From contig JALHMR010000040.1 of NCBI GenBank assembly GCA_022843945.1, forward strand, positions 1 through 44,603: DNA of 44,603 nt, given 5' to 3'. The translations under genes were made by a program, and so were the position numbers. Below are positions 5,121 through 36,680 of this stretch, one piece after another. Numbering within the stretch: position 1 is the stretch's first letter; every line of letters starts with the position of its first letter. The notes beneath the pieces were generated by a model that saw only the letters and a list, made by a program, of their open reading frames with translations, ran no database searches and was not told the origin of the DNA. The stretch is from Rhodospirillaceae bacterium (lineage in GTDB: Bacteria; Pseudomonadota; Alphaproteobacteria; CACIAM-22H2).

Positions 5121-5558
5121 ATGCGCTTCTTTCGCTGCCTGACGATCGCTGCCGCTCTCGTCCTGCCCACCGCCACGGCGAGCGCTCAGGCCATTCCCGA
5201 CATGAAGGGAACCTGGTCCGGCAGTTCGCATTCGATCGTTATGGGCGCCAATCATGGGCACCACGCCGACAACACCCAGCCAGCCGACAAGCCGTTCCTG
5301 GCGTCGCGCACCTTCACCCTGCAGGTCGAGGGCCAGGACGGGCGGCGCTTCTGGGGTACGACGGTGACCAGTCATTCGCGCGAGAGTTTCATCGCCGTGC
5401 TGCGGGCCGACGGCAAGTCCTTCCTCCTCGTCGATAGCGACGGCACGATGTTTGTCGACGCGATGGGGGCTAACAGCTTCGAGGGTTGCTACACCCAGAA
5501 CGGCGCGCATGCCGGCAAGACGCTGGTCGCGTCCTGCACGACCTTCACCAAGCGCTAG
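5121..5558 (+). CDS. small secreted protein of unknown function
   Basis: The 145-residue product begins with a clear Sec signal peptide: R-F-F-R, a hydrophobic A-A-A-L-V-L-P stretch, then a likely cleavage after A-S-A. The mature part starts near D-M-K-G-T-W-S-G-S-S. It alternates hydrophobic and polar residues, suggesting a small beta-sandwich or lipocalin-like barrel. It has a His-rich turn, N-H-G-H-H-A-D-N, and two cysteines near the end (G-C-Y-T and S-C-T-T-F). I do not recognise a named family. It sits between the acyl-CoA dehydrogenase and the acyl-CoA ligase, and the ligase start follows its stop by two bases, so it is part of the same transcript. Confidence 0.7.
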   Translation: MRFFRCLTIAAALVLPTATASAQAIPDMKGTWSGSSHSIVMGANHGHHADNTQPADKPFLASRTFTLQVEGQDGRRFWGTTVTSHSRESFIAVLRADGKSFLLVDSDGTMFVDAMGANSFEGCYTQNGAHAGKTLVASCTTFTKR

Positions 5559-5560
5559 AT

Positions 5561-18802: not shown

Positions 18803-19046
18803 CGAGCGAGATGGTGAGGGAGGGGCTGGGCGTAAGTAAGGCGGGCCGTCTCAACAGAGAGCCGCTTGGCTAGGAAAACCTTAAGGGCTGTAGAGAAAAG
18901 TAAGTTTTCATTCTATGGTTGTGGCGTCCCGTTCTGGGGAGCCATCGCTACATGCCCGGCATTGTTCTTGATAGTTCATCTGAGACCGTAGACGGCGTCG
19001 GTGGGCGGGCTCAGGTGGTTAATTGTAGCCACGTGGCCAACCAACC

Positions 19047-20480
19047 ATGATGGACAATCCTCCACCCCGCAGCGGTCAGGCCGATCTCGGTCGGGATCCT
19101 GGAGATCTTGCTAGACGCATCGATGGCATAGAAGAGCGGCTTAAGGAGTTAAAGGAACAGCCCAAGCCAAAAGACGGCTGGGACAAATTTTCAACAGTGA
19201 CAGCTTTCCTATCCAGTGTGCTCCTCGCTGGTCTAGCAACAACGTTTACTATCATCTATCAAAGCGATGAGGCCGACCGCCGAGGCCGCGCCGAATTGTC
19301 ACAGAGCCGGCAGCAGGACCATCAGAACCGTGTACGGGAGCTTGAGGCGGTTGCTAAGTTCGTTCCTTATTTAACCGGCCGAGAAGCCAGCGAAGATAGC
19401 AAGAAGCTGGCTGTCATTGCGCTTCGTGAATTCGCAAGCACCGGGGTGGCGACAAAGTTCGCCGAGGCTTTTCCTTCCGACGGAACGATCCGTGCCCTGA
19501 CCGAGATAAGGTCTACCGCGTCGACCACAGAGCAGAAGGTGATTGATGCCGCTCTTGCGCGCATTCGTGCCGCGCCGGCTGCTAGCAACGCGTTACCCTT
19601 CAAAGGCGAGCTCCATCGTGCGGATATCGGGACTTGGAATCTCCGCTGGTTCACAAAGCAGGGCTTTGCTGCTTCAGGCTCGCGGGGCGTAAGCTGGGAG
19701 CGCCGCGTCGAAACGGTTGCCGGCGCTATCGTCGGTCTCGATCCCGATATCTTGGCGGTAACAGAGGTCGATTCCTCCGCACTGAACGACCTGGTGCAAG
19801 TCCTCGAGACTAAGGGTTATCCGGCCAGCTTCGTGACGAGACGTGCCACCGGCCAGCCGGAGGTAGGAATTGTTTACAACAAGAACAAAGTTACAGTTAG
19901 CGATCTGAGCGCCGACTTCGATAGAAAATTCAAGTCGGAGCTGGAGGCAACAACCAGCGGTGGCCTTGCTGCCTTTGTCCGAAAGCCATTATTCGCGCGG
20001 GTGTCGATCAAGGAGCGTTGCGAAGTCGTATCCCTGATGCTGATGGTCGTGCATTTGAAGGCGGGTTTTCCAAGGCCCGATATCGTCGAGCAACGCCTTC
20101 TTGCTGCTCGGTCCTTGGCTGAGATCGTCAAGAGAATTCGTCGTGAAACCAATGAGTCGATTGTTCTCTTGGGAGATTTTAACGATCCGCTCGACTCACC
20201 TCAGCTGCAGCCTCTCACCGGTTCCAGCGATTTGATTCACGTAAGCGAAACTGAAGGAGGGACGCCTGTCTCGTGGATCGGCATGCGGGATCAAGGAACA
20301 GTCGCGTTGGACCACATCATGGTAAGCCGCGACTTGGCTAATAGGATCCGTAGCGATCAGTTTCGGTGGAAGGATGCTCCGGCCGTTCGTCTTGATCAGG
20401 AAATTCAAAGCTATCGTGAGCTCGTGTCGGACCACGTCCCCGTTATGATTCCGCTCTCCTATTTACAAGAATGCAGGTGA
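19047..20480 (+). CDS. membrane-anchored endonuclease/exonuclease/phosphatase (EEP) family protein
   Basis: 477 residues. Residues 20-45 form a charged, probably coiled segment. Residues 49-71 are one membrane helix, and residues 95-175 are helical and HEAT-like. From about 190 comes an EEP (DNase I-like) domain with every landmark: Asn198 (T-W-N), Glu240 (V-T-E-V-D), His336 (V-V-H-L-K-A-G), Asp377/Asn379 (G-D-F-N-D), D422-H423, and D462-H463 (S-D-H-V-P). It should cleave nucleic-acid or other phosphodiesters. Whether the domain faces cytoplasm or periplasm is unclear. Codon use is visibly less GC-rich than its neighbours', suggesting transfer. No clear ribosome site; the ATG at 19050 is an equal choice. 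Confidence 0.8.
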   Translation: MMDNPPPRSGQADLGRDPGDLARRIDGIEERLKELKEQPKPKDGWDKFSTVTAFLSSVLLAGLATTFTIIYQSDEADRRGRAELSQSRQQDHQNRVRELEAVAKFVPYLTGREASEDSKKLAVIALREFASTGVATKFAEAFPSDGTIRALTEIRSTASTTEQKVIDAALARIRAAPAASNALPFKGELHRADIGTWNLRWFTKQGFAASGSRGVSWERRVETVAGAIVGLDPDILAVTEVDSSALNDLVQVLETKGYPASFVTRRATGQPEVGIVYNKNKVTVSDLSADFDRKFKSELEATTSGGLAAFVRKPLFARVSIKERCEVVSLMLMVVHLKAGFPRPDIVEQRLLAARSLAEIVKRIRRETNESIVLLGDFNDPLDSPQLQPLTGSSDLIHVSETEGGTPVSWIGMRDQGTVALDHIMVSRDLANRIRSDQFRWKDAPAVRLDQEIQSYRELVSDHVPVMIPLSYLQECR

Positions 20481-20499
20481 AGTACCGCCTGCCAATTCA

Positions 20500-21363
20500 T
20501 CACTCGATAACAAACTCACCATCTTGAAAGAGTGACCGTGAAGGTAGTCTCATTCGGTCAATAATTTCCTGTAACCATCGGCTGAGTTGTACTTCGTCGA
20601 GCTGGGTTTCATAGCGATACCAGCCCTGTGTTGTTTCCCTATCGATGCGAAGCGCCCCTTGCCCAGGCACAGTCGTCTCAAGGTGGCGCTTTATGGTGTC
20701 ACGCTGAGCGACCGTAAGATTCACGATACGGATATTGTATGTTCGCCTCACGAAGTTTCTGACGATATCAACGCGTAGCTGCTCGCCTACATCGCCGGCG
20801 AGTGGGGTGACTTGCGGGTCGAAACGCGTCTTTTCGCAGGCCTCGGGGCATAGCATGGGAAACGTCAGGTGGGGTTTGAGTATCTTGTCTGACGATGCAA
20901 CGAGCGCGCCGGTTCTCACATTCATAACGTCGGCTCTTATTCGAAGATGGCCGGAATTGAAATTCGCTCCGACGCTTACGGTCGGGGTAATAGCGACAAG
21001 CACCAGAAGATCAATGGCCGGCTCGCGGATAGCCTTGGTGATACTGATGATCTGCTCTCGTTTCGCCCGAATGCTTTGCGCTTGTGCGAACGAGGATACG
21101 GCGGCAACATGGTCAATTATCTGGAATAAGGGCCGCTCATCGCAGGTAGCCATCCTTATTGTCTTGCCGATTTCGCGGATGACGTCAGTTGCGACTCGAT
21201 CGCGTCGCCGCGCCGTCTCTTGATCGTCTCCGATGTCTTCGACAGCGATGAGAACGGTCGTGGCGGCACGGCACGCCTCCTGGGCGCGAGCGTGAGGCAA
21301 GGCGACAAATATCGCAGCGACGACGATCGATGCGAAGAGCGGACATTTCCCTCGACGCTCCAT
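20500..21363 (-). CDS. secreted CsgG-like protein of unknown function
   Basis: 287 residues from the ATG at 21363, which has AGGGGG before it; an in-frame start 132 bases earlier would bury the signal. The signal peptide runs through a hydrophobic stretch to A-R-A, with cleavage near residue 27. The middle (L-L-V-L-V-A-I-T-P-T, then I-R-A-D-V-M-N-V-R-T-G-A-L-V-A-S) looks like the alpha/beta module of CsgG/FlgT/TolB-N proteins, which handle envelope assembly. Four cysteines follow the signal (two in C-P-E-A-C). The C-terminal 80 residues look like a second small alpha/beta unit. It converges on the EEP gene (19-base gap) and diverges from the caspase gene. Assignment to the CsgG-like fold is tentative. 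Confidence 0.6.
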   Translation of the reverse strand: MERRGKCPLFASIVVAAIFVALPHARAQEACRAATTVLIAVEDIGDDQETARRRDRVATDVIREIGKTIRMATCDERPLFQIIDHVAAVSSFAQAQSIRAKREQIISITKAIREPAIDLLVLVAITPTVSVGANFNSGHLRIRADVMNVRTGALVASSDKILKPHLTFPMLCPEACEKTRFDPQVTPLAGDVGEQLRVDIVRNFVRRTYNIRIVNLTVAQRDTIKRHLETTVPGQGALRIDRETTQGWYRYETQLDEVQLSRWLQEIIDRMRLPSRSLFQDGEFVIE

Positions 21364-21591
21364 ATGAGCCCCCTGCAAGTAGCCTAGCTCCTCGCATAGA
21401 AACTGGCGCGCCTCGTTAATAAAGTTGGGCGCCACCGCCGTTAACACGCTCGTTACTTTATTACACGTATTGGCAGCAGTATGAAGTACTTGCACTACCG
21501 ATGGAAAGTCAGTCTAATCGCCTCAGCGTGTTCGCTCGACAAGACGAATTCCGATCGGCGCCGTTAGTTGTCATGAAAACGGGAGGGCGGA

Positions 21592-23220
21592 ATGCGCGAG
21601 CCTGCCTGGCGCACCGATTCGTGTCGATTGCAGAGCGTCGTGCGTTGGGCGGCAACCGCTACGTCTCTTGTGCTGCTCAGTTGCGCGGATGGGGCTGGCT
21701 TCGGGCAGGCCGGGCTAGTTGGCGCTACCGCATCGAATGCCTATCGGTCTGCGTACGCTTCCCAACCCGGATTTAAGAGTTTTGCGAATGCTGATGATGG
21801 AAGCTGGGGATGGGTCTCGGGGCGCGGCACAGCACAACAGGCCGTAACTGATGCGCTCGCGCGCTGTTCACGTCATTCTACTACATGCAAAACCTATGCG
21901 ATCGATGACGTTGTAGTTGGAGGCTTGGTTCCGAGCCAGATCGATCGCGCTATTGCGCAGATTGAGGCGCAAGGCTCTGCCGGGCGGCCACGGGTCGTTC
22001 GTGCGGAAACACCAGCCACCGGCGCGTTGCCGACCAATGTTCCGCCTATCGGGCCCCAAGCCTCAGTCCCTACACCCCCGGCAACGCCTAGGCCGCCTCT
22101 GGGGACCAGCTCAGCCGCGTCGTCTTCAGTCGCGCCACCAAATCCCGCCTCACCGCCGGCGCTTGCCGACCTTACTCAGAACCGCGGCATCGTTCGGTAT
22201 ATCCAAACGTCACTGAGAATTCTCGGACTCGATCCCGGGCGCTTCGATGGCGTGGCTGACGCAAAAACAAAAATTGCAATTCGGGCATTTCAGAGTAGCC
22301 GAAATTTACCCGCCAGCGACGTTATTACGGTCGATACCTTTGAGCAAATCGTGTCAGCCGCCGATGATGTGGGGCCGGTGGCTCAGCCAACCAATGTCGT
22401 GGCCGCCATCGTGGGTATTCGCAACTACGAGGATCGGGCGCCGGATGTCCTATTTGCCGATAACGATGCGGCGGCAGTTGAAAAATTCGTTTCGGATACC
22501 TTGAAAGCCGATCGACGCAACATCCTGCGACTCCAGAGCGGTCGCGGCTCGAAGGGAGAGCTGGAGGAGATTTTTGGCAGTGATCGTGCCGCGGAGGGCC
22601 GGCTATATAGGCTCGTTCGAGCCCAAACGCAGCCCTCCAACGTCGACGTGCTTGTGTACGTGTCCAGCCACGGTGTGTCGCGAGTGACCGAGTCAGACAA
22701 CCTACGGGATCGGAGAGGCCCGGTCGCAGAACAGTATTTATTGCCCAAAGATGGCGATCCGGAGAATCCTCAAATCAATGCATATTCGCTTCAGTTGCTG
22801 CGCCGCAATCTGCTGGCGCTCAATGCGCGATCTGTCACGTTGATCCTGGAGGCTTGCTTCTCAGGACAATCTGACGGTGGGCCAGTTCAGAAGGACGTGT
22901 CTCTCATCAACACCGTCATCAACCTTCCGCCAGACAGAACCGACGCTCGCGGGATTACGATTCTGGCTGCGTCGCAATTCAACGAGACCGCGAGATGGGA
23001 CCGCGATGCTAAGCAAGGGCGATTTACTAAGCATCTCCTCGAAGGCTTAAGTGGTTTGGCGGACGCGCGGCCATACGGAAACGCTGATGGCTCTATAACG
23101 CTGGGGGAGGTGCGCGCCTATCTCGCCGAAGCGATGCGGCACGATGCACGCATGGAGTTTCGAAACCAAAAGCCAGATCTTCTGGGTGACGATCGCCAGA
23201 TACTCGTCGTTCTGAGATGA
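21592..23220 (+). CDS. caspase-like (peptidase C14) lipoprotein with peptidoglycan-binding domain
   Basis: 542 residues. A hydrophobic leader ends in L-V-L-L-S-C31, a plausible lipobox. Residues 48-110 resemble DUF4189 (W-G-W-V-S-G-R-G, Cys92 and Cys99). Residues 130-190 are a Pro/Ala/Ser-rich linker. Residues 198-255 are a peptidoglycan-binding repeat (I-Q-T-S-L-R-I-L-G-L-D-P-G-R-F-D-G). From 268 comes a caspase p20-like domain with A-D-N-D-A-A-A-V, catalytic His360 in Y-V-S-S-H-G-V and Cys422 in L-E-A-C-F-S-G. The protease should act in the periplasm, tethered to lipid and wall. GGGAGGGCGGA supports the start. The stop overlaps the next gene by ATGA. Confidence 0.85.
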   Translation: MREPAWRTDSCRLQSVVRWAATATSLVLLSCADGAGFGQAGLVGATASNAYRSAYASQPGFKSFANADDGSWGWVSGRGTAQQAVTDALARCSRHSTTCKTYAIDDVVVGGLVPSQIDRAIAQIEAQGSAGRPRVVRAETPATGALPTNVPPIGPQASVPTPPATPRPPLGTSSAASSSVAPPNPASPPALADLTQNRGIVRYIQTSLRILGLDPGRFDGVADAKTKIAIRAFQSSRNLPASDVITVDTFEQIVSAADDVGPVAQPTNVVAAIVGIRNYEDRAPDVLFADNDAAAVEKFVSDTLKADRRNILRLQSGRGSKGELEEIFGSDRAAEGRLYRLVRAQTQPSNVDVLVYVSSHGVSRVTESDNLRDRRGPVAEQYLLPKDGDPENPQINAYSLQLLRRNLLALNARSVTLILEACFSGQSDGGPVQKDVSLINTVINLPPDRTDARGITILAASQFNETARWDRDAKQGRFTKHLLEGLSGLADARPYGNADGSITLGEVRAYLAEAMRHDARMEFRNQKPDLLGDDRQILVVLR

Positions 23221-24281
23221 TAGTATTCAAGGTGGGACGACTTCTACGCACACGGAGTCATTCAGGTCGAGTGGCCAGGTGGGCAGTGATCGCAACGCTA
23301 ACGTGCGTGCTCTTTGTCACAAGCCGCGCAGAAGCCGATTGTTCGCAACGGAGCTCTGTCGAGCGTACAGCCTGTCTCTTTTCGCTGCAGGTCGACGGCG
23401 TTCTAAAGGAACGTTCGATAGGCCTCCTCTTCGAGCGTAGCTTCACGCTGGCCGAAGGATTCGATACCACCGGCTTCGGCGGTTATTTGTCAGCACGCTT
23501 TGCAGGTGCTTTGGAGCGACGCCAGAGTTATCGGATGAAGCGGAGAAAACCGGAGCTGTCTCTAAGTGAAATGCAAGGGTTAGGCGGTGATGATTTCGAT
23601 TCGACGGTGTTGCAACTCAATCCCGGCGCATTTCTGCTTACCGGGAATATCGAGTTATTTGCTGATCGTCATGAAGTCGAAGTTACGGTACGTCTGCGGT
23701 CGACTGATGGTCCGCATCTGCTCTTCACGGGATATATTCTCTTGGTCGACGTACCGGAGCGTTTTTCGCCGATAACGGGAGTGGGGGGTGATCCGTGGGA
23801 GCGAATGCCACGATACAATCCGCTTGGCTTGACGTTGTGGACAAACAGGGGGCGAGACGCAATCTTCTACGCAAGTGGCGCGAATGGAAAACCAGACAGC
23901 TTTCACCTCCAGTGGTCGATTGCTGCGGACGGCTTTGTGCATTGCTATGCGAAGGATAACGCGGGGAGACTGCAGAAACTCTTTCCTAACGAAGCGCATC
24001 CGGTCGCCGGATTTCGAGGCGGGGCGCTTTTCCAAATCCCGAAGGACCTTGCGCCACCGCAAAGAGGCGCCCCCTTTACTTGGCAGACTGATACCCCGGG
24101 TCGAAATGTGGTGCGGTGCTTTGCGACCCGGGAAGATCCGGCAAAATGGTTATCGGAGAAGCTCCGGGCGAACTATAGCGGTAAGCAGATCATCGACGGA
24201 CTTACCGGCGATGACTTAATGGCGGAATATCGAAAGACTGACAGCGTGTCAGAAGCCGTCGTGGTCGTTGATGTCCACTAG
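23217..24281 (+). CDS. secreted protein with CsgG-like and DUF4384 regions
   Basis: 354 residues, starting inside the caspase stop (ATGA), so the two are translationally coupled. Residues 18-41 are a signal or anchor helix ending T-S-R-A-E-A-D-C. Residues 60-190 (F-T-L-A-E-G-F-D-T-T-G-F, then L-L-T-G-N-I-E-L-F-A-D-R) have a CsgG/TolB-N-like pattern. Residues 225-310 fit DUF4384: S-I-A-A-D-G-F-V-H-C-Y, L-F-P-N-E-A, F-Q-I-P-K-D, then V-R-C-F-A-T-R-E. DUF4384 is often fused to or next to caspase-like proteases, so this is probably the partner or regulator of the C14 protein. The low-GC island ends here. Confidence 0.7.
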   Translation: MIVFKVGRLLRTRSHSGRVARWAVIATLTCVLFVTSRAEADCSQRSSVERTACLFSLQVDGVLKERSIGLLFERSFTLAEGFDTTGFGGYLSARFAGALERRQSYRMKRRKPELSLSEMQGLGGDDFDSTVLQLNPGAFLLTGNIELFADRHEVEVTVRLRSTDGPHLLFTGYILLVDVPERFSPITGVGGDPWERMPRYNPLGLTLWTNRGRDAIFYASGANGKPDSFHLQWSIAADGFVHCYAKDNAGRLQKLFPNEAHPVAGFRGGALFQIPKDLAPPQRGAPFTWQTDTPGRNVVRCFATREDPAKWLSEKLRANYSGKQIIDGLTGDDLMAEYRKTDSVSEAVVVVDVH

Positions 24282-24331
24282 TTCTCCATATCAGCGCCTT
24301 GCGCACCGCCCATGCTGGGTGAGCGATGGCC

Positions 24332-25273
24332 TTAGAAGCTCAACACCTCATTCCGATCCGAACTCGATCCGCCCGGCGTCGGGCCGCCGGCCAGCACGTG
24401 GAGCCGGCCGCCCTGGGCCACCGCGGCCAAGCCGTGGCGCGGGGTGGGCAGGCGCGCGAGGCTGGTCCACGTCTTGGTCGTCGGGTTGAAGCCCTCGACC
24501 TCGCCGAAGGTGCCGCTGGGCGCCTCGCCGCCGACGATGACGATGGTGCCCGATAGCGCGGCGCCGGCGATGCCGCTGCGCGCCGTCGGCAGCGGGGGTT
24601 GCGTCTCCCAGCGGTCCGTGGCCGGATCGTAGACCTCGTGCGTCGCCAGGTTGCGGGCGTAGGAGCCGTCGACCCGGCCGCCAATGGCGTGGAGCCTGCC
24701 GTTGAGCGCCACCACCGCGTGATGGTCGCGCGGGGTGGGTAGGGGCGCCAGGGTCGTCCAGCGATCGGCGTTGATCTCATAGGCCTCGTGCACCGGCGTG
24801 TTGCGCCGCGGCTGGCCGGGGCCGATGCCGCTCACCGCGTGGATGCGGTTGCCGAGCAGGTCGGCGGCCAGGGCGCCGCGCGCCGTGGGCATGGGGCCGA
24901 GGCCGCGCCAGCGGTCCTGGACCGGATCGTATTCGTGGAGCTCGTCGGTCACCGTCCAGTGATGGTCGGTGTAGCCGCCCAGCACGTAGAGCTTGCCGGC
25001 GGTCCCCACCGCGGCGGTGTGATGCAGCGGCCGGGGCACGGGCGCGCCGCGGCTCCAGCGGTCGGCGGCGACGTCGTAGATCTCCAGCTCCCGGTTGAAC
25101 CGATAGTCGCCCACCACATAGATCCGCCCGCCCACCGCGGCCGCCGCGATTTCTCCGCGCGGGGCGGGCAGGGGCGCGGCAGTGGTCCAGCGGCCGGGGC
25201 CGGTCTGGGCGAGGGTGGGGCGGGCAAGCAGAGTCGCGGCGGCAGACGACAGGAGCAGGCGGCGGGTGAGCAT
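24332..25273 (-). CDS. exported Kelch-repeat beta-propeller protein
   Basis: 313 residues. The N-terminus L-T-R-R-L-L-L-S-S-A-A-A is a twin-arginine-like leader ending T-L-A-Q. Five to six Kelch blades follow, each with a double-Gly strand end and a W-x-x-x-x-P-L-P turn (for example L-Y-V-L-G-G-Y and D-R-W-S-R-G-A-P-V-P). The fold is a beta-propeller for binding; no catalytic residues can be assigned. The ATG at 25273 has GGGAGG five bases before it; an in-frame GTG at 25279 is less likely. Codon use returns to the high-GC type. Confidence 0.85.
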   Translation of the reverse strand: MLTRRLLLSSAAATLLARPTLAQTGPGRWTTAAPLPAPRGEIAAAAVGGRIYVVGDYRFNRELEIYDVAADRWSRGAPVPRPLHHTAAVGTAGKLYVLGGYTDHHWTVTDELHEYDPVQDRWRGLGPMPTARGALAADLLGNRIHAVSGIGPGQPRRNTPVHEAYEINADRWTTLAPLPTPRDHHAVVALNGRLHAIGGRVDGSYARNLATHEVYDPATDRWETQPPLPTARSGIAGAALSGTIVIVGGEAPSGTFGEVEGFNPTTKTWTSLARLPTPRHGLAAVAQGGRLHVLAGGPTPGGSSSDRNEVLSF

Positions 25274-25423
25274 AAGCACCTCCCGGTGGTCGGTTCAGCG
25301 GCCCTGCTGTCGTTCGCGGCCCCGGGCGATCAGGGTTTCGCCATCAATCTGCACCTCGGCGGCGCAGTGCCGGACCGATCGTTCGCCTGATGCCGCGGCA
25401 TGCTGCCGCAACTCCCGGTCGAC

Positions 25424-25648
25424 CTAGATCGCCGTCGTCCCGGCCGCAATGCCTGCCGCCAGCTTGCCCAGCTCATCAAGATCCTGCATGACCCGGACGC
25501 TCATGCAGGCGCAGAACGCCGACGCCTTCGCATCGCCCACCGCCGGGTCGATCCCCAACAGGGTCCGCTCGCACGAGGTTTGTGCCTGGACCGTGGCCGG
25601 CATGAGGACGCCGGCGGCCAAGACCCCGAGAATGCCGATCCGCTTCAT
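25424..25648 (-). CDS. small secreted Cys-containing protein
   Basis: 74 residues. It starts M-K-R-I-G-I-L-G-V-L-A-A-G-V, a Sec signal cleaved near V-Q-A-Q. The mature part has three cysteines (T-S-C-E-R and F-C-A-C-M-S-V-R) around a short helix, D-L-D-E-L-G-K-L-A-A-G. The start has GAGGGAGTGG before it; an upstream in-frame ATG at 25759 would cross the operator region. It is divergent from the HNH-repeat gene across an operator-rich gap. Function not recognised. Confidence 0.6.
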   Translation of the reverse strand: MKRIGILGVLAAGVLMPATVQAQTSCERTLLGIDPAVGDAKASAFCACMSVRVMQDLDELGKLAAGIAAGTTAI

Positions 25649-25674
25649 CGTCCACTCCCTCTCCCAGAGTATCA

Positions 25675-25753
25675 AAATGTCTATAGGCATTTGTAAACTT
25701 GAAACCGGGCCGGGCGAAACCCTACATGAGGATATAGACGAAATGTCTATAGG
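25675..25753. promoter_or_regulatory. operator-like cluster of GTCTATA sites in a divergent promoter
   Basis: The 13-mer AAATGTCTATAGG occurs exactly twice, at 25675-25687 and 25741-25753. The second copy also forms the perfect inverted repeat TATAGAC-GAAAT-GTCTATA at 25733-25751. The first copy is symmetric as AAATG-N8-CATTT. The cluster lies between divergent starts at 25648 and 25771. A weak TTGAAA (25699-25704) may be a -35. It looks like binding sites for a dimeric regulator, not identified. Confidence 0.6.
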
Positions 25754-25770
25754 TTGCAAAGGAGCCCGCC

Positions 25771-26688
25771 ATGCCCCGCCTGGTTCCCGCTGTCGACCGC
25801 GACGGCTGTATCGCCCGGATGCAGGCGCTGACCGCCGAGCGCGGCCGGCGCGTCAGCCGCGCCGAGTTCTGCGCCGCCACCGGCCTGTCCAACTTCCAGC
25901 TGATCCGGGAGTTCGGCGGCTATAACGGGCTGCTCCAGGCTTCCGGCTTCGCGCCGCATCTGGCCAACCAGAAGATCCCGGACGACGACCTGCTGTGTCG
26001 CCTGCGCGATGCCTGCCTGTCGGCCGGGCATGTCGTGTCGCAGAGCGAATTCGACCGGCTCTGCACCCGGGGTGCCAGCCAGGGCCGCTTCAAACCCTAT
26101 CACCGGCGCTGGGGCCGCTGGCCGAACGTGCTGGCCGCCTTGCGCGTCTGGGTGGAGAAGAACGACCCGGGTTTCATCCACCGCGCCGGCCTGCCCGGCG
26201 TCGAGGCGGTGCCCGATCCGGTTCGCCACCGGGCGCCGCCGCCCGCAAGACGCTACGGCGCGCCGATGAACTTCCGCGGCGTGCTGCACGAGCCGGTCAA
26301 CGAGCCCGGCGTGATCCTGTTGTTCGGCGTGCTGGCCCGCGATCTCGGCTTCGGCATCGAGAGCGTGCATGCGAGCTTCCCCGACTGCGAGGCCAAGCGG
26401 CGCACCGGCGTCGATACCTGGGAGCGGGTGCGCATCGAGTTCGAGTATGAGAGCCGCAACTTCAAGGTCCACGGCCACGACCCGGAGGCCTGCGACCTCA
26501 TCGTCTGCTGGGCGCACACCTGGCCGGACTGCCCGCTGCCGGTGCTGGAGCTGCGCGCCGAGGTGGAGAGCCGCCGGCACGAGGTGCTGCCGCCGGTGCT
26601 GCCCGGCTGGGTGCGGGGTGCGGCGCCCCGGCCGAGCGCCCTGGAGGACCGGCCGCGGGCGCGGCCGGCGAGGGCGATTACTGATTGA
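25771..26688 (+). CDS. putative nuclease with homing-endonuclease-associated (HNH-type) repeats
   Basis: 305 residues. Two N-terminal repeats (about 10-58 and 70-128) follow the homing-endonuclease-associated repeat pattern: a helix, then R-V-S-R-A-E-F-C or V-V-S-Q-S-E-F-D, then F-G-G-Y-N-G-L-L-Q-A-S-G-F or W-G-R-W-P-N-V-L-A-A-L. These repeats probably bind DNA. The C-terminal half, with E223/E225 (R-I-E-F-E-Y-E-S-R-N-F), D242 (C-D-L-I-V-C-W-A-H) and E260 (V-L-E-L-R), resembles a PD-(D/E)xK core with Arg in place of the usual Lys. Nuclease activity is inferred. AAGGAG supports the start. The tail from 275 is Pro/Arg-rich. It may bind the operator cluster just upstream. Confidence 0.6.
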   Translation: MPRLVPAVDRDGCIARMQALTAERGRRVSRAEFCAATGLSNFQLIREFGGYNGLLQASGFAPHLANQKIPDDDLLCRLRDACLSAGHVVSQSEFDRLCTRGASQGRFKPYHRRWGRWPNVLAALRVWVEKNDPGFIHRAGLPGVEAVPDPVRHRAPPPARRYGAPMNFRGVLHEPVNEPGVILLFGVLARDLGFGIESVHASFPDCEAKRRTGVDTWERVRIEFEYESRNFKVHGHDPEACDLIVCWAHTWPDCPLPVLELRAEVESRRHEVLPPVLPGWVRGAAPRPSALEDRPRARPARAITD

Positions 26689-26862: not shown

Positions 26863-27786
26863 CACGTAAGCCGCAATCGGGTTTCTGAGCACGCCGATCT
26901 TCTCGATCTCGCTCTCCACCACGTCGCCGGGCAGGCAGTAGCGCGTGGCGGCGGTCAGGCCGGGCTGCGGCGTCCACTTGCCGCCGAGCTCCTTGTCCAC
27001 CGACCAGGCGGTGCCCGACGGCGTGCCGGTGATGATCACCATGCCGGGCTTGAGGGTGAAGTTGGTGGAGAAGAAGTGGATGAGCTGGGCGCAGGACCAG
27101 ATCATGCGGCCGGTATGGCTGGACTGGCGCGTCTCGCCGTTGATGCGCGTCTGCAGCTTGAGGTTCTGCGGGTCGCCGATCTCGTCGGCGGTGACGATGC
27201 AGGGGCCGAGGGGTGCGGAGGTGTCGAAGGCCTTGCCGCGGCCGAGCTCGTACCAGGTGACACCGTCCTTCTGCCGGACCTGGCGGTCGCGCGCCGTGAC
27301 GTCGTTGACGATGGTGTAGCCGAAGACGTGCTCGAGGGCCTTGGCCTCGGGGATGTAGCGGCCGGGCTTGCCGATGACGATGGCGAGCTCCGTCTCGCAG
27401 TCGATCTTCTTCGACAGGCGCTCGTCGTGGATGATCGCCTCGCCGGGGCCGATGACGCAGTCCGCGGTCTTGACGAAGAACTCCGGCTCCTTGCCGCTGA
27501 TCGGGGTGTTGGATTTCTCGGCGTTGTGGTCGGTGTAGTTGCTGCCCGAACAGAGGATGGTCGAAGGGACCAGCGGGGCCAATAGCCTGGCGCTGGCCAG
27601 CGGCTGGCGCGCCGAGGCCGGGGCGTTGCGGATCGCGGTTTCGGCGGCGCGCCGGCCGCGCTCGCCGGACTGGATGAAGACCAGCGAATCGCGGAACAGC
27701 GGATCGTTGTCGGGATCGACGACGGAGGTCCCGTCGATGAAGCCGAGACGCGGGCCGGTGGCGGATTGAAAGCGGACGAGTTTCAT
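26857..27786 (-). CDS. fumarylacetoacetate hydrolase (FAH) family protein
   Basis: 309 residues. The N-terminal strand is M-K-L-V-R-F. The FAH catalytic core includes C-S-G-S-N-Y-T-D-H, the acidic metal site D-C-E-T-E-L-A-I-V-I-G, Y-T-I-V-N-D-V-T-A-R-D, G-K-A-F-D-T-S-A-P-L-G-P and I-I-T-G-T-P-S-G-T. Members hydrolyse or decarboxylate acylpyruvates and related diketo acids at the end of aromatic catabolism. The substrate cannot be told. It lies downstream of the TctC gene on the same strand, separated by 169 bases of palindromic sequence. No good ribosome site precedes the ATG. Confidence 0.9.
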   Translation of the reverse strand: MKLVRFQSATGPRLGFIDGTSVVDPDNDPLFRDSLVFIQSGERGRRAAETAIRNAPASARQPLASARLLAPLVPSTILCSGSNYTDHNAEKSNTPISGKEPEFFVKTADCVIGPGEAIIHDERLSKKIDCETELAIVIGKPGRYIPEAKALEHVFGYTIVNDVTARDRQVRQKDGVTWYELGRGKAFDTSAPLGPCIVTADEIGDPQNLKLQTRINGETRQSSHTGRMIWSCAQLIHFFSTNFTLKPGMVIITGTPSGTAWSVDKELGGKWTPQPGLTAATRYCLPGDVVESEIEKIGVLRNPIAAYVA

Positions 27787-29470: not shown

Positions 29471-30832
29471 TCAGCCGAGGGTCGGCCAGGCCTGCTTGAG
29501 CGGCGTGCCGAGGTCGATGACGTAGCCCTTCTTGTCGTCTTTGACCTCGCGGATTAGCTTGGCGAACTTGGGATGCTTGGCGAGGAGCGCCGCGAGGCTG
29601 TGCTTCTCGGCCGACCATGGACCCCGCACCTTGGTTCCGGGGCGCTTCTCCTTGCGCTTCTTCTCCTTGGCGCGCTCCTTGTTCCAGTCGGCTTCGCGGC
29701 CCGCGTCGATCTCGTCCACCGGATAGGTGAGGTGCACGGCGTAGCCGGTCTCGCCGCGCGCGGCGATCAGCATCTCCAGGGCCTCGCGATCCGGATTGCC
29801 GTGCTCGCCGTTGCCCGAGAAGACGTAGTGGTCGGCGGGCAGACGCTCGAAGAACTTCTGCTCGAGGTTGCGGGCGCTGCCGTGATGCGGGACCTTGAGC
29901 AGGCCGAGCTTGAGCGTGCCGCCTTTCGGCACGAGCTGGGTGAACTCCAGGCCTTCGAGGATCTTGTCGCCGCGGGCATCGCCGGTCAGCAGCATTTTCT
30001 TGCCCGCCGCCTCGGCCAGCACAACCAGGCTGGAAAGGTTGGCCGGCGAGGTGTCGGCGTAGGCAGCCAGCACGTCGGAGACCGGGTCGCCTGATTCCGC
30101 GCGGTCGCGCAACCATTCCTGATGCTTCTTGCGCAGCGCGTCGAGTTCCTTCTGCAGCGGGCCGATCACCCGGAAGGTCAGGCCGGGCGCTACCTTGAGC
30201 GGTGGCGCGCCCGGCTGGGCAATGACCGGCTTGTTCTTGTAAGCGGAGGGATCCTCGAAGCCCAGCTGCTTTGCCCTGAAATAGCCGACGGCGAGGCTGC
30301 GCAGGGTGTGGCCCTGCTCGACGCTGGCCAGAACCTGGAGCGTGGCCCGCAGCGTGACCGGATCGTTGTCGATGATGGCCGCGTCCGAGTCGAGGACCAG
30401 GTCGTCGGGCAGCTCGCCGTCGATGGTCGCGGAAGCCGTGACCACGCCGTTGCCGGGCTTGAGCTTCTTCTTGACCTTGCCGGCATCGTCGTCGATCACC
30501 GCATCGAAGCTGTTGTGCCAGAGGTGCTTGACGCGCACGGCCATGGGTTTGTTGCCGGTATGGCGCTGCTTGAGCTCGCTCACCAGCTCGATGACGCCCT
30601 GGATATGGTCGTCGTCGACATGGCTCACCATGAGCGCATCGACGGTGAGCGGTTGCAACTCGGTGAGCGGGCGCGCCTGGCGGATGGCCGTGATGCGCGG
30701 CTGGAGATGCGGGGTATAGACCTGCTTGGGCCCGCCATCGACGATCACCAGGCCGGGATCGTCCTTGCTGCCGCTGTGGATCAGGAAACAATCGCCTTTG
30801 CGGGCTCGCCGCAGATCGAAGCTGAAGATCAT
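29471..30832 (-). CDS. ComEC/Rec2-like metallo-beta-lactamase-fold hydrolase
   Basis: 453 residues with no signal peptide or membrane segment. The metal site is present: His71-V-D73-D-D75-His76 in V-S-H-V-D-D-D-H-I-Q-G, Asp285 in L-L-T-G-D-A, and H316-H317 in V-P-H-H-G-S-A. This layout is that of the stand-alone beta-lactamase domain of ComEC/Rec2, linked to nuclease activity. About 200 residues between the first and second sites are an insertion of unknown fold. Residues 385-405 are extremely basic (K-E-K-K-R-K-E-K-R), which suits nucleic-acid contact. It is the last gene of the patatin-subtilase-MBL operon, 34 bases after the subtilase stop. The substrate is unknown. Confidence 0.82.
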   Translation of the reverse strand: MIFSFDLRRARKGDCFLIHSGSKDDPGLVIVDGGPKQVYTPHLQPRITAIRQARPLTELQPLTVDALMVSHVDDDHIQGVIELVSELKQRHTGNKPMAVRVKHLWHNSFDAVIDDDAGKVKKKLKPGNGVVTASATIDGELPDDLVLDSDAAIIDNDPVTLRATLQVLASVEQGHTLRSLAVGYFRAKQLGFEDPSAYKNKPVIAQPGAPPLKVAPGLTFRVIGPLQKELDALRKKHQEWLRDRAESGDPVSDVLAAYADTSPANLSSLVVLAEAAGKKMLLTGDARGDKILEGLEFTQLVPKGGTLKLGLLKVPHHGSARNLEQKFFERLPADHYVFSGNGEHGNPDREALEMLIAARGETGYAVHLTYPVDEIDAGREADWNKERAKEKKRKEKRPGTKVRGPWSAEKHSLAALLAKHPKFAKLIREVKDDKKGYVIDLGTPLKQAWPTLG

Positions 30833-30866
30833 CGCTCCCCCTTTCGCGGCTCTGGCCGCGCTTCAA

Positions 30867-32789
30867 TCACACGCGCTGAAACGCCCGCAGCACGTCGAGC
30901 ATGCCGTGGCCCTGGAAGCTGCGCTCCCGTCCCAGATCGGTGGCGCTCTCGCAGAGGATCTTCTTGATGCGCCGCGGTTGGCCGATCAGCTCGCTGTAGC
31001 GCGCCATGAGCATGGCCGCCGCCCCGCTGACATGCGGCGCCGCCATGCTGGTGCCGTCGAGATCGGTCCACGGCCCGCCGGCAGCAACGGGCGCGGTGCT
31101 GCGGATGCGCTCGCCCGGCGCCACCAGGTCCGGCTTGGGCCTTCCGTCGCCGGTCGGGCCGCGGCTGGAGAAGAAGCTGACGCCGTAGGTGTGCGGCGAG
31201 TTGCGGTGCGTCGAGCCGACGGTGATGACGCCGTCGGCGTTGCCCGGGTCGGTGATGCTGAAGGAGGCGTAGCTCTCGAAGGGGCCTTCCTTGGTCTCGA
31301 AGCTCTGATAGCCGCGGTTGCCGGCGGCGGCCACCACCACCACCCCGCTATCCACCAGCTGCTCACTCTCCAGGCAGACCGGCGTGCGGCCGCAGGCGTA
31401 GTTGCGCACGTCGTGGCGGATGGAGAGGCTGAGATTGGCGCCGTGGATGACGGTGAAGCGGTGACGCTCGTTGAGATAGCGGATGTATTGGAGGGCGGCG
31501 ATGATGGCGAACTCGGTGTCCTCGAGCGTCGGCCCCATGACGCGGAAATCGTAGAGGCCGATATCCGGACACATGCCGTCGCCGATATCGGAGTCGAGGC
31601 CGGCTTGCCGTAGCTTGGCGGAGTTGGCGCCGATGATTCCGGCGACATGCGTGCCATGGTTGCTCAGCGGCGCGGTGCCGTCCGGCAGGGTGACGATCTG
31701 TTCGATCAGCGGCCAGTTGAGACGCCGGCCTTTGTCGACGTCATCGGCGATCTGCGCCAGGTCGCCATCGATCTTGGCGAGATTCTTCTGCTCCTCGGGC
31801 TTCAGGGGCTGGTTAGGGTCGTAGCGACTGAGCTTCATCGCGTTGTGCGCGCGGGTCTCGTCGTCCTCGTTGCTCAGGCTGACGATCTGCCGGAACTGGC
31901 TGAAATCGTAGCTCGCCTTGACGCGCGAGGGTTTCTCGTTGGGCTTGGGCTTCTCCTTCTGGAAGGCAGGATGGGTGGCGTCGATCCCGGAATCGAGGAC
32001 GGCCCAGTTGATGTCGCCGCAGTTGACCGCGAAAAGGAGCTTGGCCGCGTCGCCCTTGACCGCCGGCACCGAGCGCGCGACCGCGGCGGTGGCCGTACGG
32101 TTGAGCGAGATCTGAAAGACCAGCGGCGCGTCGGGCTGCCGCATGGCGTTGAGCAGCTGCAGAAGCGGCCTGGCGACGGCATCGACCTTGACCTTCTCGA
32201 GCGCCCGCTGGATCTCCTCCTCGGCCGTTCCCTTGCGCGCCCCCTTGCGCGGCTGCGCCTCGCCGGCCCAGAGGATCAGCGCCGCGAGCCCGACATACTT
32301 GTCGAGAGTGGAGAAGCTGTCCGTCCCGGGGCCGCGGCTCCTGCCGCAGGCGATCTGCAGCATGTATTCGAGCGCCCGGCGCAGCTTCTCGCTGATTGCC
32401 TCCGGCCGCGCCGGATCGAAGTAGAGGTTGAACTCCTGCCGGTTCCGCGGCTCGTGCCACCACCCCGTCATGGGCACGATCACCTGCAGGAGCTGGTCGA
32501 ATTTAAGCCGGGCCGCGACGACGGCCTGCAGGAACGCGACCTCCGGATCCGGGCGCGGCTTCGCGTCTCGCTGCCTTTCTTCCTTCAGGCGCCGGTTGAT
32601 GGCGCTGGCCACTTCGCTGGCGAGCTTGCTCTTGTGCGGCGTGATCAGCAGGTCGGCGGCGTCCGCCGGTTTCTTCGCGAAGGCGATCCAGACGTCGCCC
32701 AGGATCGGCGAATCCTGCAGCTGGCGCCGGTCGTTGGGCGCGCCCAGCAGCATGTGCTCGACGGTCGCACGCGGGACTTCGATGGGCAT
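30867..32789 (-). CDS. cytoplasmic S8 (subtilisin-like) serine protease with long N-terminal region
   Basis: 640 residues, no signal peptide. The catalytic triad is intact: Asp266 (A-V-L-D-S-G-I-D), His378 (N-H-G-T-H-V-A-G) and Ser581 (G-T-S-M-A-A-P-H), with oxyanion Asn491 (A-A-A-G-N-R-G). The first 255 residues match no propeptide I recognise. They are helical, with W-W-H-E-P-R-N and L-I-L-W-A-G-E segments, and may be a sensor or partner-binding part. Between Asp and His is a charged insertion of about 110 residues, where subtilisins have about 30. It starts 2 bases after the patatin stop. A secreted degradative role is unlikely; a regulated intracellular cut is inferred. Confidence 0.88.
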   Translation of the reverse strand: MPIEVPRATVEHMLLGAPNDRRQLQDSPILGDVWIAFAKKPADAADLLITPHKSKLASEVASAINRRLKEERQRDAKPRPDPEVAFLQAVVAARLKFDQLLQVIVPMTGWWHEPRNRQEFNLYFDPARPEAISEKLRRALEYMLQIACGRSRGPGTDSFSTLDKYVGLAALILWAGEAQPRKGARKGTAEEEIQRALEKVKVDAVARPLLQLLNAMRQPDAPLVFQISLNRTATAAVARSVPAVKGDAAKLLFAVNCGDINWAVLDSGIDATHPAFQKEKPKPNEKPSRVKASYDFSQFRQIVSLSNEDDETRAHNAMKLSRYDPNQPLKPEEQKNLAKIDGDLAQIADDVDKGRRLNWPLIEQIVTLPDGTAPLSNHGTHVAGIIGANSAKLRQAGLDSDIGDGMCPDIGLYDFRVMGPTLEDTEFAIIAALQYIRYLNERHRFTVIHGANLSLSIRHDVRNYACGRTPVCLESEQLVDSGVVVVAAAGNRGYQSFETKEGPFESYASFSITDPGNADGVITVGSTHRNSPHTYGVSFFSSRGPTGDGRPKPDLVAPGERIRSTAPVAAGGPWTDLDGTSMAAPHVSGAAAMLMARYSELIGQPRRIKKILCESATDLGRERSFQGHGMLDVLRAFQRV

Positions 32790-32791
32790 CC

Positions 32792-33946
32792 CTAGACTTT
32801 CGCGGCCGGGTAGGGGAACTCCACCGCCGGCGTTAGAGTTGGATCGACATGCTTGCGCAGCGCCGCATCGCAGACGGCATAGCCCCAGTTGATCAGGCGT
32901 TCCTGATGAGCCGCCTTGAGCGCCTCAAGGCGCGTCGGCGTCTCCGCCAGCGCGAGCGTCCTCGCCACTGGGCAATCGAGGGTCTTGTTCAGGCCGTAAT
33001 TCCGGATATCGGTGCGAATGCCCCAATAGGCGCCTTTGCGGTGGATGCTTTGATCCGGCGGAGCCTTGTAGGCGTCTATCAGCGCCCGCTTGCGCAGCGA
33101 GCGGACCTGGTTGTCGATCAGATCGAGGACGCGATAGGCATGGCCGGCCCAGTTCGAGGCCGGCGAGGCTTCCGGTTGTGTCTTGCCGCCCCCGTCGCTG
33201 ACCAGCACCGTGCGGTAGCGCTTGAACACGGTTTCGAGGCCGAGGTTGTCGTAGACCCCGCCGTCGGTCAGCACCACCTTGCTGGTGTACGGTGGATGCT
33301 GCAGGTCGGTCCCGGAATTCGCCGTGAAATCGTTGGGGTTCACCGTGATCTCGGCCGGTGAAAGAATCGGCGGAAAGGCCGAGGAGGCAGCCATGGCGAC
33401 CGACAGGGGAATCTCCGGCTTCTTGATCTCGCCGACACGATAGTCGCGCATGTAGCGCTTGGAGAACCGCCACAGGGCACCGGACTGCACATTGGTGGCG
33501 TTGATCACGAAGCGCGGCGCGTCCGGCAGGGCCTGCAACGTCGCGCCCTTGAGCTCGAGGTGTGCCTCGTAGGCTTCGGCAACGCGGTCGCTGACCCGTC
33601 CGGGCAGCAGGACGCCCGTGATAACCGATCCAACGTCGATGGTTTCTCCCGCCAGGCGGCGCAGCGGCGCGACTACCCTGGGCACGAAGTCGGCTTGGGG
33701 CTGCGGCGCGGCGAAGTTGAGGTTTCGCCATTGCAGACCCAGCACCGCCGCGGTGATCGAGCCGCCCGAGACGCTGGAGATTCGCGCGACCTTGCCGAGG
33801 ATGCCGGTTTCGTAGAGCCGCCAGAGCACGCCGATGTGAAACACCATGGCCCGGTAGCCGCCTCCCGAGAGGCAGAGGCCGATGCCATCCTCGGGTTGCG
33901 GGCTTTCGGACGTGGCGGAAAGCGCCTGGCGAATAGTGTCTGACAT
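32792..33946 (-). CDS. patatin-like phospholipase
   Basis: 384 residues, no signal peptide. The oxyanion loop is L-S-G-G-G-Y-R-A. The nucleophile is Ser60 in S-V-S-G-G-S, where the first Gly of G-x-S-x-G is replaced by Ser. The dyad Asp228 is in L-T-D-G-G-V-Y-D-N. Patatins cleave acyl chains from membrane phospholipids, and several bacterial ones are toxic effectors in defence systems. AGGGGG before the ATG supports the start. It is the first gene of the three-hydrolase operon and is divergent from tetR (132 bases). No sensor gene such as a cyclic-nucleotide synthase is adjacent. Confidence 0.88.
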   Translation of the reverse strand: MSDTIRQALSATSESPQPEDGIGLCLSGGGYRAMVFHIGVLWRLYETGILGKVARISSVSGGSITAAVLGLQWRNLNFAAPQPQADFVPRVVAPLRRLAGETIDVGSVITGVLLPGRVSDRVAEAYEAHLELKGATLQALPDAPRFVINATNVQSGALWRFSKRYMRDYRVGEIKKPEIPLSVAMAASSAFPPILSPAEITVNPNDFTANSGTDLQHPPYTSKVVLTDGGVYDNLGLETVFKRYRTVLVSDGGGKTQPEASPASNWAGHAYRVLDLIDNQVRSLRKRALIDAYKAPPDQSIHRKGAYWGIRTDIRNYGLNKTLDCPVARTLALAETPTRLEALKAAHQERLINWGYAVCDAALRKHVDPTLTPAVEFPYPAAKV

Positions 33947-35375: not shown

Positions 35376-36680
35376 TCAATCATCCATCAGCGACGCGGTC
35401 TTGATCGCGTCGGCGATGCGCATGCCCTTGCGCAGGACCGCGTCCACGGCGTGGCCCTGGACCAGGTCGATGCCGTTCTTGTTGGCGTAGAGCAGGCCGG
35501 TCACCGTGCTGCAGCGCGCCAGGATGAGCTTGCACTGGCCCTCGCGCGCTGCCGCGATCTTGTCGAGGAAGGCGCGCTCGGCCTCGGGCTCCAGGGTGAT
35601 GTAGCTGTTCGACCAGAAGACCTTGGCGTAGTGGCAGCCCAGCGAGTCGAGATCGAACTGGGTCACCCAGAACTCGTCGAGCCCGTCGAGACAGATGCGG
35701 TACTCGCGGCTATGGGCGAAATCGAGCAGCTCGCGATAGAGATGCAGATGCTCGAACAGGTCGCTCTTGTTGATCTCCAGCACCACCTTGCCGCGATAGG
35801 CGGCCGGCAGGCGCTCGTCGAACTTCTGGAAGTCCGCCGACAGCGCCGTCGACAGGTTCATGTTGATGCCGATCGACTCGCTGCCCATGAACTCCAGCCC
35901 GTGGTTGAGGCTGCGCAGGAGCGAGCGATCGAGGCTGGCGGTGAAATGGTTGAACAGCCAGCGGTTGGCCAGCAGGTCGTAGTCCGGCGACAGGCGCGTC
36001 TGCAGCTCGCGGATCGAGATGTAGAGCTCGAAGTATTCCTTGTTCTTGTCGCTGTCGTCCTTGATGTCGATTACCGCCTGGTTGAACAGGAACGGCGACA
36101 GGTCGAACATGCGCAGGGATTTGTCGATCTTGGCCAGTTCCTCGGGCGTGATCGCCGGCTTGGCGTCGCTGCCGGCCGTCAGGGCGCTGCTGTCCGACTT
36201 GGTGATCGATTCCACGTAGCGGATGACGTGGACGAAGTTCATCGACAGCTCGAGAATCGAGTAGAGCGACGCCTCCTTGTACGGGTTGACGCCCGTCATC
36301 TTGCTCTTGTTGAGCAGCGACACCTCGATCTTCTTGCACACCTCCTCGACCGAGGAAAACTTCAGCCCCTTGTAGAGCATGATGATGTCGCCGTTCGACA
36401 TGTCGAACATCTGCACATGGGCCGAGTTGGCGGCGAGCTCGCCCAGGGCGCGCTGGATCATGGTGGTGTCGGAGAGCTCGACCTTCTCGAGCAGGCCGAG
36501 ATGCAGGTGCACCAGGCGCATGCCCTGCAGTTCCTTGCTCGAGGACTGCAGCAGGGCGAGCAGCTTGGCGTCCTCGAATTCCTTTTCCTGCGGAAGCTGC
36601 GCCGCGGCATTGCGGGTGCCGGGCGTCACGCGCACGTGGTCGCGCATCGGACGGTGTTGTTGCTGCGGCGGCGGCCTCAT
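35376..36680 (-). CDS. EAL-domain-like protein, probably catalytically inactive
   Basis: 434 residues. About 200 N-terminal residues have a PAS/GGDEF-like alpha/beta pattern (M-F-D-M-S-N-G-D-I-I-M-L-Y). The last 240 follow the EAL fold: I-N-M-N-L-S-T, V-V-L-E-I-N-K-S, I-C-L-D-G-L-D-E, F-W-S-N-S-Y and L-V-Q-G-H-A-V-D-A. The motifs needed for c-di-GMP hydrolysis are changed: no E-A-L tripeptide, the D-D pair reads D-G, and E-x-T-E reads E-I-N-K. It is likely a binding or scaffold protein. GGGGAA before the ATG supports the start. It is divergent from the MATE gene. Confidence 0.75.
   Translation of the reverse strand: MRPPPQQQHRPMRDHVRVTPGTRNAAAQLPQEKEFEDAKLLALLQSSSKELQGMRLVHLHLGLLEKVELSDTTMIQRALGELAANSAHVQMFDMSNGDIIMLYKGLKFSSVEEVCKKIEVSLLNKSKMTGVNPYKEASLYSILELSMNFVHVIRYVESITKSDSSALTAGSDAKPAITPEELAKIDKSLRMFDLSPFLFNQAVIDIKDDSDKNKEYFELYISIRELQTRLSPDYDLLANRWLFNHFTASLDRSLLRSLNHGLEFMGSESIGINMNLSTALSADFQKFDERLPAAYRGKVVLEINKSDLFEHLHLYRELLDFAHSREYRICLDGLDEFWVTQFDLDSLGCHYAKVFWSNSYITLEPEAERAFLDKIAAAREGQCKLILARCSTVTGLLYANKNGIDLVQGHAVDAVLRKGMRIADAIKTASLMDD

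Follow-up and report, generated by a model that had tools for sequence, protein, structure and literature searches.

What does an island of four genes with low guanine-plus-cytosine (GC) content, among them one for a caspase-like protease, contribute to a GC-rich alphaproteobacterium? The question is raised by a 5.2-kb block at positions 19047-24281 of a 44,603-nucleotide stretch of contig JALHMR010000040.1 from a Rhodospirillaceae bacterium; this whole stretch is referred to here as the window. The block encodes, in order, an EEP-fold enzyme, a CsgG-fold protein, a caspase and a DUF4384 protein. Its horizontal acquisition is well supported by its composition, by its absence from a genome of the same genus and by the rarity of its caspase in the order, as the earlier note on this DNA had proposed. 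With regard to function, the favoured reading, to which we give an even chance, is that the block is an acquired, compact version of a little-studied caspase module of the envelope, acting as a proteolytic switch at the peptidoglycan.

Composition and origin of the block

In 200-base windows, GC content falls on the left from 0.72 (from 18,400) to 0.62 (18,700) and 0.55 (18,800), and rises on the right from 0.59 (24,200) to 0.72 (24,300). The island as a whole has a GC content of 0.562, and 600 windows taken across this genome include none as low (mean 0.668, standard deviation 0.022, minimum 0.598); these 5.24-kb windows, taken from 20 stretches of 20 kb, overlap and are therefore not independent. 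GC content at third codon positions (GC3) is 0.592 in the EEP gene, 0.588 in the CsgG-fold gene, 0.587 in the caspase gene and 0.569 in the DUF4384 gene, against 0.852 in ispA, 0.908 in dxs, 0.897 in the DUF4286-like gene, 0.918 in the kelch gene, 0.942 in the FAH gene and 0.893 in the Bug gene of the flanks; a small flanking open reading frame (ORF) at 25424-25759 has 0.759. The shift to GC-poorer codons after 18802 and the return after 24281, both described in the earlier note, are thus borne out, and its coordinates were correct. The near-identical GC3 of the four genes suggests one donor and one event. Shared composition does not prove joint function.

The sole same-genus genome compared (G001), whose dxs protein is 83% identical to that of the window, lacks the block; a copy of native composition at this site, named beforehand as grounds against acquisition, is absent there. 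G001 keeps dxs and, 2 kb on, homologues of window positions 26094-26528 and of the FAH gene (26878-27579). The interval between dxs and the FAH side holds HigB-like and helix-turn-helix antitoxin-like ORFs, named by eye (L209, reverse complement of 5261-5947), and no counterparts of the DUF4286-like and kelch genes were seen between these flanks. The differences therefore exceed the low-GC block and the comparison stops short of the junction, while the presence of a HigBA-like pair where the block is missing marks the interval as variable. In searches with the two flanking genes (31 genomes each), no other genome had both on a single contig, and identities were 25-42%. As the flanks were matched poorly and never as a pair, the clean junction between 18802 and 24332 expected in relatives was not found and its exact position is not demonstrable, so that the comparison relies on dxs and the distal flank. 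A gene at the far edge of this variable interval (25771-26688, plus strand) encodes a protein, conserved in G001, with homing-endonuclease-associated HNH repeats.

Within the order, 23 genomes were scanned with the caspase profile, and two matched, the window's own and one by a distant hit. A single-sequence search with the caspase matched 19 of 61 relatives at an E-value of 1e-3, mostly over short lengths in or near the peptidoglycan-binding region; beyond the own genome, the only good match was in G051 (41%), from another family of the class, and a weak one was in G023. The EEP enzyme was found in 2 of 61 relatives and 2 of 289 genomes, the own genome counted, the others being weak and partial. 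A single-sequence scan of genome contigs gave no match, and the profile scan did find matches. Plasmids yielded one distant caspase, two distant EEPs and one DUF4384 protein, with no match to the EEP N-terminus; viral scans yielded one distant caspase and no EEP.

The block is flanked by a native DUF4286-like gene, whose stop lies at 18802, and by a kelch-repeat gene (24332-25279). By composition (GC 0.56), the segment at 18803-19046, from the DUF4286-like stop to the EEP gene, forms the left edge of the island. No long direct repeats were found at the block edges, no transfer RNA (tRNA) gene in the window and, by Pfam, no recombinase among the four block genes. Elsewhere in the window, GC content dips locally to 0.59 at 35376-36680 (minus strand), where a gene has a sub-threshold EAL-domain match.

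The four proteins

The caspase (21592-23220, plus strand, 542 residues) carries two domains scoring above the Pfam gathering cut-offs. Peptidase_C14 (PF00656) spans residues 270-488 (22399-23055; 31.7 bits against a cut-off of 21.4, E 1.6e-7), and PG_binding_1 (PF01471) spans residues 201-251 (22192-22344; 34.1 bits against 23, E 3e-8); a DUF4189 match fell below cut-off. In alignments with 96 related domains, His360 (codon 22669-22671) meets His in 95 and Cys422 (22855-22857) meets Cys likewise in 95, so the catalytic dyad is intact and the protein belongs to Peptidase_C14 by both score and active site. Additionally, Asp292 is Asp in 94 of the 96, and Glu420, two residues before the Cys, is acidic in all of them (87 Asp and 9 Glu, the latter as in the window). 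In metacaspases, such acidic residues bias cleavage towards basic residues. The N-terminus contains a lipobox-like LLSC with Cys31. The proposed lipoprotein nature of the caspase and secretion of the CsgG-fold protein stand to the extent that this lipobox and a signal peptide can be read by eye, without a signal-peptide predictor.

The DUF4384 protein (23217-24281, plus strand, 354 residues, with a signal peptide by eye) belongs to PF14326 by alignment and score (31.9 bits against a cut-off of 27, E 1.4e-7). It is shorter than its relatives, whose additional N-terminal part looks CsgG-like by eye. Its start overlaps the caspase stop by the 4 nucleotides ATGA (23217-23220), which suggests translational coupling. 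Caspase relatives were gathered by a profile scan of named genomes, of which the best 80 of 264 relatives, representing 79 loci, were analysed by best-hit assignment. The identical overlap recurs in 5 of the 79 (L125, L129, L141, L152 and L165), where a second DUF4384 start, overlapping by 10 nucleotides, exists as well. In L120, L162 and L173 the DUF4384 ORF opens 71-142 bases past the caspase stop, and a single ORF of L128 combines a caspase with a weak DUF4384 match. A Methylobacterium plasmid locus (L114), where the gene after the caspase overlaps by 4 nucleotides and is not matched by the DUF4384 profile, was not counted.

The CsgG-fold protein (20500-21363, minus strand, 287 residues; the longest ORF extends to 21495) was characterized through family alignments and structure prediction. 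It had no Pfam match up to E 1, and hence none to CsgG (PF03783). Its AlphaFold2 model, built from 11 sequences, reached a predicted local distance difference test (pLDDT) value of 76 and a predicted template modelling (TM) score of 0.66, and comprises a first domain (residues 33-207) and a small alpha/beta domain (206-288), in model numbering that runs one ahead of the protein because the query included one upstream codon. Foldseek matched the model to a flagellar LPHT ring chain (E 3e-6), FlgT (2e-5) and PelC and CsgG (2e-4 to 1e-3). Furthermore, VIA placed HpaA, the TolB N-domain, PelC, FlgT and CsgG at Z of about 10-11 over model residues 33-207, with 118-152 residues aligned for the TolB, PelC, FlgT and CsgG chains and Z of 8.5-10.1 for CsgG. 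The model thus supports a CsgG/FlgT/PelC/TolB-N fold for the first domain, one of the CsgG periplasmic type that TolB, PelC, FlgT and LptE have in common. The label 'CsgG-like' given in the earlier note therefore holds for the fold and not for family membership.

The EEP enzyme (19047-20480, plus strand, 477 residues) belongs to the PF03372 superfamily (60.9 bits against a cut-off of 24.5, E 1.9e-16). Hydropathy reveals one hydrophobic segment at about residues 52-71, followed by about 120 residues without known kin and by the EEP domain at 195-463. The motif positions N198, E240, H336, D377/N379, D422 and D462/H463 were located, and we take them to have their usual metal-binding and catalytic roles. 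As basic residues are richer on the N-terminal side of the hydrophobic segment, the usual charge heuristic suggests that the EEP domain faces the periplasm. For the N-terminal 190 residues, a search of 397 other genomes returned no match.

As for layout, the EEP and CsgG-fold genes are convergent, the CsgG-fold and caspase genes divergent, and the caspase and DUF4384 genes overlapping. The divergent intergenic region (21364-21591) presumably holds promoters, judging from the gene layout; it contained no match to the sigma-70 consensus. Promoter and terminator scans gave fewer matches than shuffled sequences, for which reason no such element is claimed.

Recurrence and proposed function

The caspase, DUF4384 and CsgG-fold genes are adjacent in the block, and the same families recur together in other bacteria. 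Among the 79 caspase loci, nearby families include DUF4384 (15 loci), CsgG-fold (13), transglycosylase (12), a family of about 500 residues (9) and OmpA (6). A DUF4384 or CsgG-fold family member is present in 21 of the 79, against none of 40 control stretches (Fisher p 8e-5), a test that is only indicative because the loci vary in length, several share a genome and the profile contained partner-bearing caspases. The controls comprised 20 stretches of 18 kb from G181 and G232 and 20 of 20 kb from the window's genome; they held no DUF4384, CsgG-fold family or caspase gene, and one held a transglycosylase. The reverse direction agrees. A four-sequence CsgG-fold profile matched 12 of 289 genomes of the class, the own genome counted, and in 7 of the 11 others (G181, G301, G215, G307, G232, G243 and G139) the fetched stretch also contained a caspase, a DUF4384 gene or both; G181, G301, G215 and G307 are not independent, since they fed the profiles. 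In G215, G307 and G232 DUF4384 was present and the caspase was not in the stretch. Of the remainder, G204 had other cluster families, while G063, G189 and G285 had a short CsgG-fold protein only; additional CsgG-fold copies in G307 and G301 lacked partners (L103 and L104). In single-sequence searches, 3 of the 289 genomes had the CsgG-fold protein and 5 had DUF4384, the own genome counted. The window sequence alone thereby recovered the DUF4384 genes of G181, G301, G215 and G307 and, for the first two of these genomes, the CsgG-fold gene too. In G181 and G301 the two genes lie close together, with a caspase in the neighbourhood too.

In several genomes the set is part of a more extensive cluster that also encodes OmpA, transglycosylase and further proteins. 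In Thalassobaculum litoreum (L165), the caspase, DUF4384 and CsgG-fold genes follow one another directly. The order in L143 is DUF4384, caspase, CsgG-fold (split over two frames), OmpA-subtilase and CsgG-fold. The fusion of an OmpA domain to a subtilase, a second protease, was recognized by Pfam in L143:9206-11116 and by an OmpA profile and likeness in L081:7126-9360. On an Azospirillum ramasamyi plasmid (L256:7134-20002), extracytoplasmic function (ECF) sigma and zf-HC2 genes precede, by about 3 kb and on one strand, a cluster of PG_binding-DUF4384 (with a sub-threshold CsgG match), OmpA, a second DUF4384, CHASE2-cyclase and caspase-SH3-SUMF1 genes, which is a hint of envelope-stress regulation.

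Two further observations concern these clusters. Conserved families without a Pfam match, namely the family of about 500 residues, one of 180, one of 400 that we presume from the look of its sequence to be Lon-like, and a small transmembrane protein, adjoin transglycosylase genes and caspase partners (L080:934-5874, L082, L083, L125, L131, L141 and L165); a one-sequence search without positive control did not find the 500-residue family in the own genome. Moreover, four of five cluster OmpA proteins read, otherwise divergent, end in [RV]IKW (L081, L082, L083 and L143, and not L080), possibly a C-terminal processing or docking signal.

Taken with the export signals, the recurrent cell-wall-linked domains (PG_binding, OmpA, SH3 and transglycosylase) suggest that the caspase module is located at the cell wall. 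In the mechanism that we propose, the caspase would be exported, lipid-anchored and held at the peptidoglycan through its peptidoglycan-binding domain. The DUF4384 protein would be produced in step with it as partner or regulator, and the CsgG-fold protein may serve as an adaptor on the periplasmic or outer-membrane side, possibly forming a ring like FlgT, PelC or CsgG. A change in the state of the envelope or peptidoglycan would free the caspase from restraint, and the freed enzyme would cut envelope proteins after basic residues, so that the envelope is remodelled or broken. The same fold matches to FlgT, PelC and CsgG, together with the recurrence beside OmpA and transglycosylase genes, could alternatively mean that the trio works in assembling the cell surface or exporting polysaccharide; the caspase would then be a maturation protease and not an enzyme of stress or death. 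We regard this as unlikely, because the fold is common to many unrelated periplasmic proteins and genes for a fibre, a polysaccharide or a secretion substrate were not recognized in the block or in the cluster genes read.

The position of the EEP enzyme is different. No EEP gene was found beside the related caspases (0 of 79 loci), although the same one-sequence profile did detect two plasmid EEPs, and the four-gene set occurs in no other locus examined. The enzyme shares the composition of the block without sharing its recurrence, and it is therefore treated as a passenger of the same transfer or as a local accessory, which might cut nucleic acid or another phosphodiester from the periplasmic face of the inner membrane. 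The earlier note had seen all four genes as one protease/nuclease system of a kind recurring in defence, a reading that these counts do not support for the EEP enzyme. Here the four would act together against phages or plasmids, the caspase causing abortive lysis and the EEP enzyme destroying DNA that enters the periplasm. The composition common to all four genes, the HigBA-like pair in the same interval of G001 and a separate three-gene cassette 5 kb away, whose MBL-fold and subtilase proteins match defence models, would suit such a role. We nevertheless consider it quite improbable: the four proteins matched no PADLOC family up to E 1, the EEP gene has no counterpart at the 79 related caspase loci and is convergent with its CsgG-fold neighbour, and phage records contained no match to the caspase or the EEP enzyme, the two proteins searched. 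The cassette itself (29471-33946, minus strand) consists of three consecutive genes of native GC content and is a candidate defence cassette in its own right. It encodes an MBL-fold hydrolase matching the LmuA, RTasMBL and Avs1a models, a subtilase with hits to defence subtilase models and a patatin-like phospholipase that no PADLOC model matched.

Several points weigh against the envelope caspase module. Its export, activity and substrate, as well as its activation and biological role, are predictions from sequence. Neither partner lies near 58 of the 79 related caspases, some of which are on short contigs. The scan profile included caspases from partner loci (G181 and G301) and may favour such loci, one of the 79 (L170) is apparently the G051 record that was itself in the profile, and the 40 controls represent three genomes, with the window's own supplying 20. 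On the structural side, Foldseek TM-scores by query length are low (0.23-0.40), the fold is common, as the tRNA synthetase domains in the lower VIA rows (Z 8.5-9.5) indicate, and a structure model of the DUF4384 protein was discarded at a pLDDT of 51. None of the four block genes encodes OmpA, a transglycosylase or another cluster member. Finally, in a quick caspase tree the window caspase forms a long branch of unsure placement, for which reason no donor is named.

The missing cluster partners and the long caspase branch, along with an EEP enzyme without close relatives, would also be expected if neutral or decaying genes had arrived together by chance and had no joint function. The chance of this appears slim, given that all four ORFs are open with active-site residues intact, that the 4-nucleotide overlap is kept and that the same three families are linked in distant bacteria. 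A more ambitious version of the envelope caspase module, which we hold to be doubtful, would make the block a reduced, mobile variant of a trans-envelope proteolytic machine, so far undescribed, that occurs in Alphaproteobacteria and certain other bacteria. In such a machine, a peptidoglycan-held caspase, joined in larger versions by a subtilase, a lytic transglycosylase, OmpA and the presumed Lon-like protein, would work across the envelope as a switch for stress or death, and the form in the window would have gained an EEP nuclease facing the periplasm as an additional effector. If the envelope caspase module is real, an exported caspase that recurs at the peptidoglycan with fixed and overlapping partner genes would locate caspase proteolysis to the envelope of Gram-negative bacteria. 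The compact acquired copy would then be a convenient minimal version, a small and testable gene set for the role of such caspases.

Comparison with known systems

Discussion of bacterial caspases has mostly cast them as effectors in the cytoplasm. No description of the caspase, DUF4384 and CsgG-fold set was found in the literature searched, which did not cover subscription papers, and Protein Data Bank sequence searches with the EEP, CsgG-fold, DUF4384 and caspase queries returned nothing useful. The CsgG-fold protein shares its first-domain fold with CsgG, FlgT, PelC and TolB at about 10% identity, and differs from them in an extra C-terminal alpha/beta domain. The EEP enzyme resembles the MnuA and ExeM/NucH nucleases in having an EEP domain that is membrane-anchored or exported, but it falls outside their models (MnuA NF045851, 29.5 bits against a cut-off of 185; ExeM/NucH, 34 bits against 300).

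At the level of gene sets, the EACC1-caspase two-gene system, in the account given of it in PMC7159879, likewise has a caspase that acts close to the membrane and is constantly accompanied by a small partner gene. Its partner is a single-transmembrane EACC1 domain, whereas the partners in the block are, by eye, exported multi-domain proteins, and the window caspase scores 55.2 bits against the cut-off of 140 of the EACC1-associated caspase model (NF047832). The other comparison is with the operons of prokaryotic metacaspases (orthocaspases). The main text of PMC3501461 contains neither 'CsgG' nor 'DUF', and its operon section describes no partner set of CsgG-fold and DUF4384 proteins. It does report 14 metacaspase operons that include OmpA, as well as 11 sequences that bear a peptidoglycan-binding domain. 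Peptidoglycan-binding metacaspases and operons with OmpA are, accordingly, already in print (PMC3501461), and the caspase of the block is of the same PF00656 type.

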